Shown here: positions 2,552 to 7,997 of the stretch, one piece after another
Layout of the letters: each line of letters opens with the position of its first letter
How positions within the stretch are numbered: the stretch's first letter is position 1
Source: an uncultured Clostridia bacterium
GTDB lineage: Bacteria > Bacillota > Clostridia > Peptostreptococcales > Anaerovoracaceae
NCBI GenBank assembly: GCA_946006945.1
Contig: CAMFZN010000005.1
Coordinates: 1-34,758, forward strand
DNA length: 34,758 nucleotides
Direction of reading: 5' to 3'
The notes under the pieces: model-generated
Databases searched by the model: none
Told to the model about the DNA's origin: nothing
The model's input: the letters and a program-made list of their open reading frames with translations, nothing else
Translations under genes and position numbers: made by a program

Positions 2552-3940
2552 TTAATCCTCGTATGTCTTTCTTAGGATGTAGAATCCGTCCTCAAGTGCA
2601 TCGATGATTATGTTTCCTCTGTCATCTACAACAACATCCTCAGTTGAAGCAAGATGCGGTCCGGGGAATGGGAAGAATCTTGATGTTGGGTTAGGAGGAA
2701 TGAAGTAAGCCTTCTCCTTTATGTAATATGGATCCGATACATCATAGATTCTGAGTCCTGCATGGAAATAACAGTTATATACGACATCAGTTCTCTGCTC
2801 AAGCCATGGCTTTCCGTCCATAGGCTCGTGAAGATTATGTGGTCCGAAAGGTCCGATTCCTCCATTTAAGCCGTATGTGTTGAAGTTAGGTGCAGGGAAA
2901 TCCTCCGGTACCTCAGGGTATGGGAACTGTGCAATCATTACAGGATTGGCAGGATCGCTTACATCTACCATATGGATGTTATTCATCGCCTGCGGTCTGT
3001 TAAGAGTTCCCTCAGGGAAGAAGCCATATCTTTCTCCCTCATTTGTTACTACGCAGAGGTTTCTTCCCTTAAGTGGAAGTGCAGTGTGTGTTCTTGCACC
3101 TGCAAGATGGCTTGAGAATGCAGGCATAAACTTGAGATTGCCAAGTGCCTTCGGTCTCTTAGGATTCTCAACATCAACTATCATAAGACCGTCGCCGCAG
3201 TATCCCATATATGCCTTGCCGTCCATTACGAACGGAGGACCGTGAAGCCAGCCCTTGTCCATGAAGTTAGGATTATGAGGCTCCTGATGGTTGACAGTTC
3301 TTCCCGGAACACCGTCAACATACTGATGAGGAGCCCACCATCTTCCCTCCTCGTAAGGATTGGTTGGGTCTGAAATATTAATGATTCTGTAAATTAGTCC
3401 CTCGAACTCCTCAGCCTCACATGAAAGGTGCACATAATCTCCGCCGTTATACATGAATCTGTGAACACCCATTGAATGAGGAACTCCGCAGTCCCAGTAG
3501 CTTAGGAACTTAGGATTCAGAGGATCCTCTTTGAGGCTGTATATTCTAATTCCCTGCTCAGACTTCAAATCAGACAGCCTGTCTCCTACAAGCGCACCAG
3601 GACCTGCTCCGGATGTCATTGCAAGAATCATAAGATCATCTGCAATCTGAATCTTAGGAATTGAAGTTGTCGGCATCTCCTCAATATCGAACGGCACGAA
3701 CTTCTTTATGAATACAGGATTCCTTGGGTCGGTAACGTCACTGATCATGACACCGACACCGTTCGGACCTGCTGCAAAAGCAGCACCATAGAGAAGATAT
3801 CTTCCATCCTCAGTTCTGTAGAGAGCCATCTGGAACATTCCGCATGTTCCATCCATATCGCAGTGAGAAAGAACCTCAAGGTTCTTTATGTAACCATCGT
3901 TACCCTCACCCTTTGAGTAAAAATACTTACCCTCGCTCAT
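2552..3940 (-). CDS. LVIVD-repeat beta-propeller-like protein, no obvious signal peptide
   Basis: Repeated blade motifs (VMISDVTDPRNPVFIKKF, RIINISDPTNPYEEGRW, LMIVDVENPKRPKALGNL, IHMVDVSDPANPVMIAQF, LRIYDVSDPYYIKEKAYF). Start chosen at MSEGKYFY because the longer ORF overlaps the upstream gene. Confidence 0.75.
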   Translation of the reverse strand: MSEGKYFYSKGEGNDGYIKNLEVLSHCDMDGTCGMFQMALYRTEDGRYLLYGAAFAAGPNGVGVMISDVTDPRNPVFIKKFVPFDIEEMPTTSIPKIQIADDLMILAMTSGAGPGALVGDRLSDLKSEQGIRIYSLKEDPLNPKFLSYWDCGVPHSMGVHRFMYNGGDYVHLSCEAEEFEGLIYRIINISDPTNPYEEGRWWAPHQYVDGVPGRTVNHQEPHNPNFMDKGWLHGPPFVMDGKAYMGYCGDGLMIVDVENPKRPKALGNLKFMPAFSSHLAGARTHTALPLKGRNLCVVTNEGERYGFFPEGTLNRPQAMNNIHMVDVSDPANPVMIAQFPYPEVPEDFPAPNFNTYGLNGGIGPFGPHNLHEPMDGKPWLEQRTDVVYNCYFHAGLRIYDVSDPYYIKEKAYFIPPNPTSRFFPFPGPHLASTEDVVVDDRGNIIIDALEDGFYILRKTYED

Positions 3941-3968
3941 CTCTTTCTCCTTAATTAACTGTAATTTA

Positions 3969-4457
3969 TTATCGATTAATCGTGCGATGTATCTTGTCAA
4001 GCAGTGCTCCGACATAGAACACTCCAACCATCATTGATACTGCTATCTGAACAGTCATGCTCATCAGAGGAATCTCTGTCTCAAGGTTCATGGCAAGCAT
4101 TCCTATCGCCCAGCCGGCAAGCCACGACGGCATGAATATGTATCGTGCAAAAGTACAGGATATCACAACCGCCAGAAATCCCAGCACGAAGAGTACCGCA
4201 AAAAGCAGCACATCAGGATTTATCTCAAGTCCGCTTCTCATTATAAGTGTTGCCGCAAGAGCCCATACATCGCCAAGCAGATAACCCGCCGCTATCTTTC
4301 CTGCATCCTCGAACTTATTTCCGTTGCAGCCATAGATGCCTGCAGCAATAAGAGCTACCGGACCGAAGCTGTTTCCGATATACGGACTTGCTACAGCCCA
4401 GACAGGAGGCAGTAAGCCTACAAGCAGCGCGAGCGAAATAATCTCTTTCTTTGACAT
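3969..4457 (-). CDS. DUF1097-like multi-TM membrane protein
   Basis: Multiple hydrophobic segments; general resemblance to DUF1097 proteins. Confidence 0.6.
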   Translation of the reverse strand: MSKKEIISLALLVGLLPPVWAVASPYIGNSFGPVALIAAGIYGCNGNKFEDAGKIAAGYLLGDVWALAATLIMRSGLEINPDVLLFAVLFVLGFLAVVISCTFARYIFMPSWLAGWAIGMLAMNLETEIPLMSMTVQIAVSMMVGVFYVGALLDKIHRTINR

Positions 4458-4479
4458 TCTTTATGCACCGCTTATGAGA

Positions 4480-5331
4480 TTATCTCATTGTGATATATCC
4501 GCGGTAGTTGGTCAGGTTGTTAAATGGAGTGTAATCTCCTACAGCGCATGAGATTACGTTATGTCTTGGCTTAAGATATGGGAATGTATCAGTCATTGCC
4601 CACTCAGGCTTTCTGATTGACTTAACGTCCTCTACCATTACCTTTCTCCACTCTGACTCACATCCGAACCAAAGCTCAAGTGTCCAGTCCATTACACATC
4701 CGTTAATGTCCTTCTTAACCTGGCTTGCAAGAATTCTTGTGCACTCAGGCGCCTTCTCAAGAACAGGAATTACCTCTTCGAAGAGCCACTTCTCACCCTC
4801 TGCCTTGTCTACGCCCTCAGGGAAGCCGATTGACATGTTGAAACGATAGTTAGGACCATCCTCTATGGTTCTTCCCTTTCCCTTGATATCCTTCTCCCAC
4901 CACATAGGAAGGAATGCGAAGATAAAAGGATTTCCTTCTGCATCGTTAGTCTGACGAGCTGCATTTCCTGCATCTCCTTCAGTCTCAATCTGACCCTTGC
5001 CCAGAGCTGATGCAGGAAGGTTGCCCTGCCATACAAGAACATCAAGAGGGAATGTCTCCTGAAGAGCCTTGATTCCAAGTCTTGGATCAAGGTCGCTTAC
5101 AAGCCAGTGATGCTCTGTAAGCTGAAGTCTTGCATAGCCATAGCTTTCTCCTCCCTCAGGCATTCTGTATGATGGATAGAAAGCATACTTTGTTACATAA
5201 GGCTCAAACTGAGAAATACTCTCAGGAATATGAGTCTTATAAAGCCATCTCTGAAGGCTTGGTCTGTAATCCTCACATGCGCAGTCTACGTAGATAAGAC
5301 TTCTCATCGGCTCAAATTTGAAATCTGCCAT
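4480..5331 (-). CDS. Protein with two possible EthD-like (dimeric alpha/beta barrel) domains
   Basis: RWLYKTHIPESISQFEPYVTKY resembles the EthD helix motif; a second half (RFNMSIGFPEGVDKAEGEKWLFEEVIPVLEKAPECTRILASQ) appears to repeat the pattern. Confidence 0.5.
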   Translation of the reverse strand: MADFKFEPMRSLIYVDCACEDYRPSLQRWLYKTHIPESISQFEPYVTKYAFYPSYRMPEGGESYGYARLQLTEHHWLVSDLDPRLGIKALQETFPLDVLVWQGNLPASALGKGQIETEGDAGNAARQTNDAEGNPFIFAFLPMWWEKDIKGKGRTIEDGPNYRFNMSIGFPEGVDKAEGEKWLFEEVIPVLEKAPECTRILASQVKKDINGCVMDWTLELWFGCESEWRKVMVEDVKSIRKPEWAMTDTFPYLKPRHNVISCAVGDYTPFNNLTNYRGYITMR

Positions 5332-5436
5332 TTCTGAATACCTCTTTCATTAAATCAAATACAGTCTCATGCAGTAACTGCCATATACCGAACCTCGGCA
5401 TATGGCTGCTTCTGCTTTAGTATCGTTATGTATTAA

Positions 5437-6420
5437 TTAGTTGTTCTTTGATGGTGATGGGGTTGGCTCGATAACAGCTGTATAGTGAGCCTTTCTAGCC
5501 TGGAACTCAGGATCCTTGTGAAGGTTCATGAGTCTGCCCTCATTCTCAAAGATATCCTTGCCGTGAAGTGCCTTTCCGGAAAGAATATCGTGTGCATGAT
5601 GCTCACAAGCAGGATCGTACTCGAACTTTATTGCACCGTCAACTACCTTAAGCTCACCTCTGAGTCCGCAAAGCTCGCACTCTGCAGTAGTAGTGCCAGG
5701 GTGAATGTAGAACGCATTACCGTTGCAGTGTGGGCATGCACCAGGTGTTCCCTTCCAGTATGAAAGTGAATCATTCTCCTTATCGAAAATCATGAGATTT
5801 CTGTCGATCATGTCCTGTGCAGCCTCAACAAGGTTTCTTGCAATCTCCTTCATTCTCTCAACCTTGTCATCCTGCATGATAACATCCTTGCACCATGAGA
5901 AGTACTCGTTGTTAACAACCTTCCAGCCAGGGCTCATTGCGAGCATAGCGTGGTCAGTCTCTGTTCTTACAGCCCAGTCAGAACCGCCGATTCCAACAAA
6001 TGAAACAGCCTTCTGCTTGAAGTACTTGTGATCAAGAGGCTCCTTGCCCTGCTCCTGAAGCTTTGAGTTAAGGCCGAGAAGCATTCCTGTATCATGTCCA
6101 GGTCCCATTCTGTCACACATTGCGTGGAAGAGACCTGTAGCACCTGACTCAAAGATTGGGTCAACAAAGAGAACTCCGTCAGCATCTACCATCTTCTCAT
6201 AGAGAGCCTTAAAGTCATCCTTTCTTGTGCAGATCATGCCCTTACCCATTACAAGACCTCTTGAACATGCAACGCAGCCTGAGCACTGCTCAATATTCCA
6301 GTCAGCAACGTGGATGAACTCGATCTCAGCACCGAGATTTCTTGCCTCCTCGAGAGCGATGCGGCACATTGTGTCATTGTTTCCGTTCTTTGTTCCGGTT
6401 GAAATACCTAAGATTTTCAT
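5437..6420 (-). CDS. NADPH-dependent FMN reductase / iron-sulfur-flavoprotein-like flavodoxin-fold protein with C-terminal zinc-ribbon-like motif
   Basis: MKILGISTGTKNGNNDTMCRIALEEAR flavodoxin-like start; CSGCVACSRGLVMGKGMIC cluster; CPHCN...CELCG ribbon. Confidence 0.8.
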   Translation of the reverse strand: MKILGISTGTKNGNNDTMCRIALEEARNLGAEIEFIHVADWNIEQCSGCVACSRGLVMGKGMICTRKDDFKALYEKMVDADGVLFVDPIFESGATGLFHAMCDRMGPGHDTGMLLGLNSKLQEQGKEPLDHKYFKQKAVSFVGIGGSDWAVRTETDHAMLAMSPGWKVVNNEYFSWCKDVIMQDDKVERMKEIARNLVEAAQDMIDRNLMIFDKENDSLSYWKGTPGACPHCNGNAFYIHPGTTTAECELCGLRGELKVVDGAIKFEYDPACEHHAHDILSGKALHGKDIFENEGRLMNLHKDPEFQARKAHYTAVIEPTPSPSKNN

Positions 6421-6501
6421 ATCTTTCCTCCGATTATTAGATTTAGTTTACAACTGGTTTCGTTAATAATTCAATTACTATCGTGCAAAAGAATGTTTTG
6501 C

Positions 6502-6981
6502 CTAGAAGTGATTCTCTGCAGGTTCGTTGCAGATCTTTCTTGATAGACCGTCAGCTACAGGATTCCACAGCATTGCGATAACAAGTGTTGGAACATAGCA
6601 TGGAATGAAGCCTGCAACTACTGCAAACGCAAATGCCTGGAATGTTCCGTGTCCGAATACGAGTACTCCGAGACCTGTCATGATAAGGTCGAGGATTACT
6701 ACGAACACACCTGCGATAACAATGTTGATTAAAAGGCCGAACTTGAAAGTGCCCGGCTTAGCATGCTTTACAGCGAAGTCTACGCCCCACTTTCCTACAG
6801 GAAGGAAGTTAACGAAGAATGTTACAAGATATGCAATGCATGCCATTCTTACGAACATTGGACCGTTAAGGTTATTGCCAAGCTTCAGTGCGATTCCTGT
6901 AATCACAAGGCTGAGCGGAAGATCCATTATCAGTGCATATACAGCTGTGAGTTTCTTGCTTTTCATGAGAATTACCTCCAA
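6502..6981 (-). CDS. DUF2798-like membrane protein
   Basis: Four predicted hydrophobic helices in two similar halves (AVYALIMDLPLSLVITGI / FKFGLLINIVIAGVFVVILDLIMTGLG). Start may be the internal Met of MKSKKL. Confidence 0.55.
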   Translation of the reverse strand: MEVILMKSKKLTAVYALIMDLPLSLVITGIALKLGNNLNGPMFVRMACIAYLVTFFVNFLPVGKWGVDFAVKHAKPGTFKFGLLINIVIAGVFVVILDLIMTGLGVLVFGHGTFQAFAFAVVAGFIPCYVPTLVIAMLWNPVADGLSRKICNEPAENHF

Positions 6982-7017
6982 ATCTGAATTATTCTTTCTA
7001 TCTCTTATGCAAAATAT

Positions 7018-7066
7018 GAAAAAAGAAAATACTCTTTACACCCATAGTTTAGATATAAAGAGTATT
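7018..7066 (-). terminator. Candidate terminator hairpin of the lysR transcript (perfect 11-bp inverted repeat)
   Basis: AATACTCTTTA (7028-7038) / TAAAGAGTATT (7056-7066), then TTCTTTTTTC on the minus strand. Confidence 0.5.
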
Positions 7067-7094
7067 CTTGTACAATTCATTAAAAGCGATACAG

Positions 7095-7116
7095 TTTATA
7101 ACCATTTGGTTATAAA
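7095..7116. promoter_or_regulatory. Perfect inverted repeat, candidate LysR-type operator
   Basis: TTTATAACCA-TT-TGGTTATAAA, containing the ATAAC-N6-GTTAT style LysR dyad, upstream of the downstream operon and overlapping the lysR stop. Confidence 0.6.
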
Positions 7117-7997
7117 TCGCAGTTATACGCACTTTGTAGTATTTTTATCAAAGTTCTGATGGTGTCATCAGCTTTACTATTCATATATGCAATACATATC
7201 TCGTCCTCTGAATCGAGCTCAAGGCATGAAATCTGCGGTGCTCCCTTAGCCCAGCTCCATTCATCAGTTATCGCAACACCCATTCCGGCACGAACACAGG
7301 TAATCATTGACTCATGATTGCTTACGAATTCAAGCTTAGGAACGAATCTGTATTTGTTCATGTGACCGTATATGGATTCTCTTACAAGCTTCTCAACAAC
7401 ACCCCACGGAACAAAGAAGGTTTCGTTTCTGAAATCTAAAGGACTTAAATCCTCAATGCTTTCATATCTGCTGCCCTTCGGATACAGAATATTCTTACGG
7501 ATTGAACATACGTCAACAATGCTTATCTCCTGTATTCCTTCAACAGAGTTCTTCATTGTAAGGCAAAGATCAAGGCCTCCTGTAAGAATGAGTGTTGAAA
7601 GCTCCTTAACACCGCAGCAGTTGACCACAAGTCTCACACCGGGACAATTCATCCTGAATTCTTCGATGATTCCGGGAAGGTATTCATACAGATCCCAGCC
7701 CTCAAGAAAACCAATCCTTACAACCCTTTCATTGGAAGATGCAAGCTTTAGAGCCTCTGTATGTGTCTTCATGAAATCCGACTTGCAGTCTCTAAACAGA
7801 TTGTAATACAGCTTACCTGCCTCAGTAAGCTCTGTCTTCTTGTTATTTCTGACGAACAGCTTAACACCAAGCTCCTTCTCAAGAAGAGATATCTGCTTGG
7901 ATATGGCAGGCTGGGACACGAAAAGCTCCTCTGAGGTCTTAGTAAAGCTCAGATTCGTTGCAACCGCCATAAAATAATCTATCTGCAGACTGTTCAT
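7110..7997 (-). CDS. LysR family transcriptional regulator
   Basis: MNSLQIDYFMAVATNLSFTKTSEELFVSQPAISKQISLLEKELGVKLFVRNNKKTELTEAG: canonical LTTR HTH. Confidence 0.95.
   Translation of the reverse strand: MNSLQIDYFMAVATNLSFTKTSEELFVSQPAISKQISLLEKELGVKLFVRNNKKTELTEAGKLYYNLFRDCKSDFMKTHTEALKLASSNERVVRIGFLEGWDLYEYLPGIIEEFRMNCPGVRLVVNCCGVKELSTLILTGGLDLCLTMKNSVEGIQEISIVDVCSIRKNILYPKGSRYESIEDLSPLDFRNETFFVPWGVVEKLVRESIYGHMNKYRFVPKLEFVSNHESMITCVRAGMGVAITDEWSWAKGAPQISCLELDSEDEICIAYMNSKADDTIRTLIKILQSAYNCDL

Follow-up and report, generated by a model that had tools for sequence, protein, structure and literature searches.

A LysR-headed gene cluster predicted to act on the flavonoid C-ring in an uncultured Clostridia bacterium, with a β-propeller partner of chalcone isomerase as candidate auronol hydrolase

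The stretch of DNA analyzed here (the window; 34,758 nucleotides of contig CAMFZN010000005.1, assembly GCA_946006945.1) belongs to the draft genome (1.26 Mb, completeness 81%) of an uncultured Clostridia bacterium of the family Anaerovoracaceae, and carries six open reading frames between positions 2552 and 7997, all on the minus strand. In their order on that strand, they encode a LysR-family regulator, a small hydrophobic membrane protein, a predicted flavone/flavonol reductase (FLR), a predicted chalcone isomerase (CHI), a DUF1097 membrane protein, and an LVIVD-repeat β-propeller protein (Table 1). An earlier reading made from the DNA letters and their translations (the sequence-only reading) had described these six co-oriented genes in this order, naming the LysR, DUF1097-like, and LVIVD proteins, as a redox cluster under LysR control with aromatic small molecules as presumed substrates, and all of this is borne out, the helix-turn-helix and substrate-binding domains of the regulator both matching Pfam above cut-off. 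Its view that no recognizable pathway was present does not hold, because two of its enzymes have close relatives among the flavonoid enzymes that have been characterized both biochemically and structurally; characterized homologues were found for FLR and CHI and not for the LVIVD, DUF1097, or small membrane proteins. Taken together, the cluster is very probably an anaerobic, LysR-regulated operon for flavonoid C-ring catabolism with FLR and CHI, and because these two are so closely related to characterized flavonoid enzymes, its substrates are predicted to be flavones or flavonols. The LysR-controlled FLR-CHI operon, whose homologues are characterized, is the ordinary and already known part of this locus. 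The new part is the LVIVD propeller, which tracks CHI and which we infer, by its association with other genes, the content of the genomes, and its fold, to be the best candidate found here for the missing auronol-cleaving hydrolase.

Table 1. Features of the cluster in the window (aa, amino acids; Pfam and phmmer matches with E-values)
Feature	Position	Strand	Basis
LysR-family regulator, 295 aa	7110..7997	-	PF00126 2.5e-20, PF03466 5.6e-11
Putative LysR box ATAACCAAATGGTTAT, palindrome, overlaps lysR end	7098..7113	-	Conservation
Promoter-like element TTGTAC-N18-TAAACT	7046..7075	-	Consensus match
Small hydrophobic membrane protein, 154 aa, no family	6502..6966	-	51-69% identical homologues at same place
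Predicted flavone/flavonol reductase FLR, 327 aa	5437..6420	-	phmmer to PDB 7d38/7d39/7d3a/7d3b, E=3.6e-82, full length
Predicted bacterial chalcone isomerase CHI, 283 aa	4480..5331	-	PF18232 1.1e-43; phmmer to 4d06/3zph, E=7e-161
DUF1097 membrane protein, 162 aa	3969..4457	-	PF06496 6.7e-17
LVIVD-repeat β-propeller, 462 aa	2552..3940	-	PF08309 7.2e-9; co-occurrence with CHI; fold

The third gene product had been read as a Cys-rich flavodoxin-fold reductase, which stands (FMN reductase domain PF03358, 9.3e-19) and can be made more precise, because by homology it is a flavone/flavonol reductase. Its residues 1-320 align to 1-305 of 7d38 (phmmer), including the C-terminal extension that follows the flavodoxin domain, and 138 of 305 positions (45%) are identical to the solved Flavonifractor FLR. 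The latter emerged from a set of 14 F. plautii genes linked to chi and phy that were expressed and assayed with apigenin only; it is reported to reduce flavones and flavonols, and mutation of G106, W149, H271, or I275 cuts its activity (PMC7862272); all four residues are kept in the window (aligned here as G106, W149, H286, and I290). The fourth product, judged likewise by its relatives, is a bacterial chalcone isomerase that aligns ungapped and over its full length to the crystallized E. ramulus CHI, with 218 of 283 residues identical (77%). The catalytic His33 (numbering without Met) is kept as H34, whereas Asp36 is replaced by Glu (THIPES versus VHIPDS), a conservative change that retains the carboxylate and recurs in an 88% identical sister CHI. 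The ferredoxin-like fold of bacterial CHI is akin to that of EthD-type proteins, and the sequence-only reading had taken this gene for a tandem EthD-like protein in a quinone/polyketide cluster; however, there is no EthD match at E<=1, against a 148-bit Chalcone_N match and the 77% identity to a proven CHI, so that the EthD identity is rejected and a quinone/polyketide cluster is scarcely credible. The E. ramulus CHI converts taxifolin to alphitonin, with His33 as base, and also opens flavanones (PMC9694015).

An orthologue of the LysR regulator heads the cluster in most relatives, and the region behind it carries a conserved palindrome. ATAAC-N5..7-GTTAT occurs in 22 of 24 distinct lysR-to-membrane-gene intergenic regions, compared with 0.5% of the 190-bp windows serving as background, and takes the form ATAAC-N6-GTTAT in the window. 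This putative LysR box lies 37-38 bp upstream of a -35-like element in the relatives where that element was recognized, and a TTRTACA-N-TAAAMT layout at a fixed distance from the box is found in most relatives; a position upstream of an operon promoter is usual for LysR sites. Around the -10-like element of the window (7070-7020) there is also an 11-bp inverted repeat, AATACTCTTTA...TAAAGAGTATT, followed by a T-rich run. Its layout is kept in several sister loci with differing sequence, and the repeat could serve as a terminator for lysR or as a second operator.

The sequence-only reading had proposed looking for the gene set in other genomes, and the neighborhood proved to be widely conserved. 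Of the 32 loci that include 4 kb or more of sequence before the LVIVD gene on its upstream side, LysR, FLR, and CHI genes accompany it in 28, DUF1097 in 23, and the gene for the small membrane protein in 22, which is far beyond chance. The nearest named relatives, as judged by LVIVD, are Candidatus Crickella, Mogibacterium-type, and related metagenome-assembled genomes (MAGs), many from ruminants. A C. difficile plasmid record of 163 kb (L001 13861-19060) carries a divergent LysR gene, an LVIVD-FLR-75-residue protein-DUF1097 series, and a 283-residue CHI. The alaS and ruvX-like genes preceding the cluster in the window also precede it in the sister genomes G005 and Baileyella; therefore, it is a chromosomal resident and not a recent insertion.

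Beyond the shared neighborhood, LVIVD almost always travels with chalcone isomerase, linked or not, across families. Among 391 Clostridia genomes, CHI was found in 6 and LVIVD in 4 (that of the window and three others), all within the CHI set. In a set of 397 Lachnospiraceae genomes, the 14 found to carry CHI also carry an LVIVD orthologue, often on a different contig from CHI, and the one further LVIVD match is an outlier of 35% identity; leaving out the genomes known from earlier searches, LVIVD was present in 8/8 Lachnospiraceae CHI genomes. The naive odds of such overlaps, kinship ignored, are about 1e-6 (Clostridia) and <1e-15 (Lachnospiraceae). Conversely, all seven genomes first found via an unlinked LVIVD gene carry CHI (one as a fragment only), and LVIVD is present in all three genomes with a CHI 99% identical to that of E. 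ramulus. A literature search for LVIVD together with chalcone isomerase found nothing, the LVIVD papers concerning unrelated matters. Further afield, the distant proteobacterial LVIVD homologues (loci L118 7968-10813; L115-L117) include one that adjoins an autoinducer-2 kinase gene.

The LVIVD gene, whose start is most likely the ATG at 3940 (corrected), encodes a protein modeled by AlphaFold2 as an all-β propeller (predicted local distance difference test score, 82; predicted TM-score, 0.88). Its best fold match in the PDB (Foldseek) is the haloalkylphosphorus hydrolase 5hrm (E 7.4e-16, TM 0.60, 16% identity), a seven-bladed propeller with a binuclear metal site; the next unrelated match follows at E 5e-9. 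The same enzyme is the best sequence-profile match (E 1e-4), the agreement being strongest across the last 73 positions. Residues H160, H233, H285, H368, E22, E301, and E434 do not vary, even in a rhizobial homologue of 33% identity, and H160, H285, H368, and E434 stand at or beside strand starts in successive parts of the model. This set of histidines and glutamates resembles a metal site, which we would place in the central channel. A carotenoid-oxygenase-like propeller with four histidines was sought among the 50 best fold matches and none was present; nor is the protein a phloretin/DAPG hydrolase, as it has no PF18089 match and an all-β propeller model.

β-Propellers often bind instead of catalyzing, and most of the Foldseek matches below 5hrm are WD40 binding proteins. 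The LVIVD protein might thus be a binding or stereochemical helper of CHI (for instance a scaffold, or a tautomerase or racemase acting on the chalcone or diketone), cleavage being left to phloretin hydrolase (Phy, PF18089) or to an unlinked enzyme. This would fit Lachnospiraceae and Emergencia, where Phy is present together with LVIVD, but not the resemblance of the invariant residues to a metal site, nor the many LVIVD genomes, some of them at least 90% complete, in which Phy was not found. PF18089 was not found in 25 CHI genomes of the same genus (that of the window and 24 sisters), in the C. difficile-like G355, in G179 and G407, in Baileyella, or in G044, these negatives being read against matches of the family in other genomes. 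On balance, a helper role is rather unlikely. A few CHI genomes have no LVIVD, namely G219, G281, and G044 (read at the CHI locus only for G044, with no genome-wide search), and in these the FLR/CHI neighborhoods contain a protein of 206-225 residues with a sub-threshold DAPG-hydrolase match (E 0.0015) that did not turn up at any of the LVIVD loci examined, making it a possible replacement enzyme. In these proteins (L086 7747-8367, L088 10302-10979, L089 6068-6688), the weak match is C-terminal and includes an HxxxE motif.

The step that an LVIVD hydrolase would perform is suggested by the literature, in which the cleavage of alphitonin is expected from "an unknown enzyme" (PMC12203004, ISME J 2025) and, in a Catenibacillus study, phloroglucinol and 3,4-dihydroxyphenylpyruvate are proposed as cleavage products (PMC11170127). 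In G179, G219, and G044, the FLR-CHI genes are flanked by genes for a keto-acid or indolepyruvate:ferredoxin oxidoreductase, phosphotransbutyrylase, and butyrate kinase, the tools for converting an arylpyruvate to an arylacetate with ATP, so that an ATP-yielding flavonol pathway is possible there. The FLR-CHI clusters flanked in this way lie at L084 227-7651, L086 626-7678, and L089 10770-15775, with a sigma-54 regulator also in L084 (PrpR-type) and L086. An above-cut-off indolepyruvate oxidoreductase on another contig of the window's own genome lends weak support, the enzyme being common. A paper on quercetin and E. ramulus was found to contain no expression data.

Alternatively, the operon could serve flavones, FLR and CHI yielding naringenin chalcone, which LVIVD would hydrolyze directly to phloroglucinol and a cinnamic acid in place of the Fcr-Phy route. 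FLR takes flavones as well as flavonols, CHI opens flavanones, and Phy was not found in the searched genomes of this type. On the other hand, the CHI equilibrium for flavanones lies toward ring closure (PMC9694015), flavone and flavanone cleavage can do without CHI (PMC11868195), and the keto-acid oxidoreductase and kinase genes by FLR-CHI fit an arylpyruvate, which is expected from flavonols and not from flavones, all of which makes this scheme improbable. Because homology makes reduction and isomerization alone certain, the cluster might also be a detoxification or electron-sink module in which flavonoids are reduced and isomerized and none is cleaved, in line with the self-protection by FLR suggested for pathogens such as C. 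difficile (PMC7862272); however, the tight tracking of CHI by LVIVD and the neighboring acid-kinase genes in relatives point to further breakdown, and we regard such a module as quite improbable.

The explanation that we mildly favor is thus an inducible flavonoid C-ring operon in which the LVIVD protein hydrolyzes the CHI product. The LysR regulator would sense a flavonoid or its product and switch the operon on from the conserved box upstream of the promoter; the two membrane proteins would help substrate or product cross the membrane; FLR would reduce a flavonol to the flavanonol; and CHI would open the C-ring, flavanonols being contracted, as expected from the close characterized homologue, to an auronol (alphitonin, for instance) that equilibrates with an open 1,2-diketone. 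The LVIVD protein, probably a metal-binding propeller, would then hydrolyze a C-C bond of this product to give phloroglucinol and a 3-arylpyruvate, which indolepyruvate-type ferredoxin oxidoreductases could convert to an arylacetic acid with a possible gain of ATP. On gene association, genome content, and fold, the chances are about even that LVIVD acts directly on the CHI product (the auronol or diketone, e.g. alphitonin). The further proposal that it is the first of a new enzyme class, a metal-dependent β-propeller C-C hydrolase converting alphitonin or maesopsin to phloroglucinol and arylpyruvate and replaced in some genomes by the small DAPG-hydrolase relative, falls a little short of even and is put forward tentatively.

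Several observations weigh against a hydrolytic LVIVD. Metal binding is predicted from conservation and fold, and the hydrolase match has a TM of 0.6. Distant homologues (25-33%) in Proteobacteria are mostly near sugar transport genes and not flavonoid genes; therefore, this scaffold is not confined to flavonoid metabolism. Of the 16 CHI genomes sampled from the E. ramulus genus, LVIVD went undetected in 4, and one LVIVD genome of that sample has no CHI. E. ramulus-type genomes carry both LVIVD and Phy, so Phy could perform the cleavage there. Finally, C. decagia cleaves alphitonin, yet the abstract of its paper lists no CHI. Nevertheless, several gut bacteria make 3,4-dihydroxyphenylacetate from quercetin by way of an auronol-splitting enzyme stated to be unknown, for which LVIVD provides a concrete, expressible candidate. 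If this holds true, flavonoid breakdown would extend to bacteria without phloretin hydrolase, including many Anaerovoracaceae-type ruminant MAGs and the C. difficile plasmid, and the microbes making these flavonoid metabolites could be better predicted.

Regarding the two membrane proteins, the smaller (start corrected to the ATG at 6966) has no Pfam match, and the DUF2798 assignment of the sequence-only reading is dropped because PF11391 stays below cut-off (best E 0.18, in just 2 of 10 homologues). DUF1097 adjoins CHI also in C. difficile and G179. Neither protein was found at the Emergencia locus, where a 433-residue protein resembling, by eye, a major facilitator superfamily transporter precedes FLR-CHI-LVIVD, an arrangement that hints at a part for the two in transport, which for the smaller one could be uptake or efflux. 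Downstream of the cluster (54-822), minus-strand open reading frames resemble, by eye, an ATP phosphoribosyltransferase regulatory subunit and a YerC/TrpR-type regulator.

Compared with known systems, the LVIVD protein finds its best fold and profile match in the propeller hydrolase of Sphingobium TCM1 (PDB 5hrm, 5ioj), which differs in acting on organophosphates and is 16% identical to it. Phloretin/DAPG hydrolases (PF18089), on the other hand, would share with LVIVD the kind of reaction, a hydrolytic C-C cleavage releasing phloroglucinol, but neither the family nor the propeller fold. The FLR-Fcr-Phy set of C. butyricum combines flavone reduction with C-ring breakdown, as proposed for the window operon, but CHI was not found there and a reductive C-ring cleavage together with Phy has been proposed instead (PMC11868195). 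The flr-chi pair of F. plautii (A4U99_05915/05920) encodes homologues of both enzymes under consecutive locus tags, with the FLR active-site residues shared, whereas the LysR box, LVIVD, DUF1097, and small membrane protein are not described there and F. plautii also has Phy (PMC7862272). The closest CHI, that of E. ramulus (PDB 4d06, 3zph, 8b7u), has the same length and the same catalytic histidine and differs at Asp36, which is water-bridged to His33 and polarizes it. In an E. ramulus-type genome, the CHI-FLR pair and the closest LVIVD gene lie on different contigs, whereas the window brings all three together in one cluster with their regulator.

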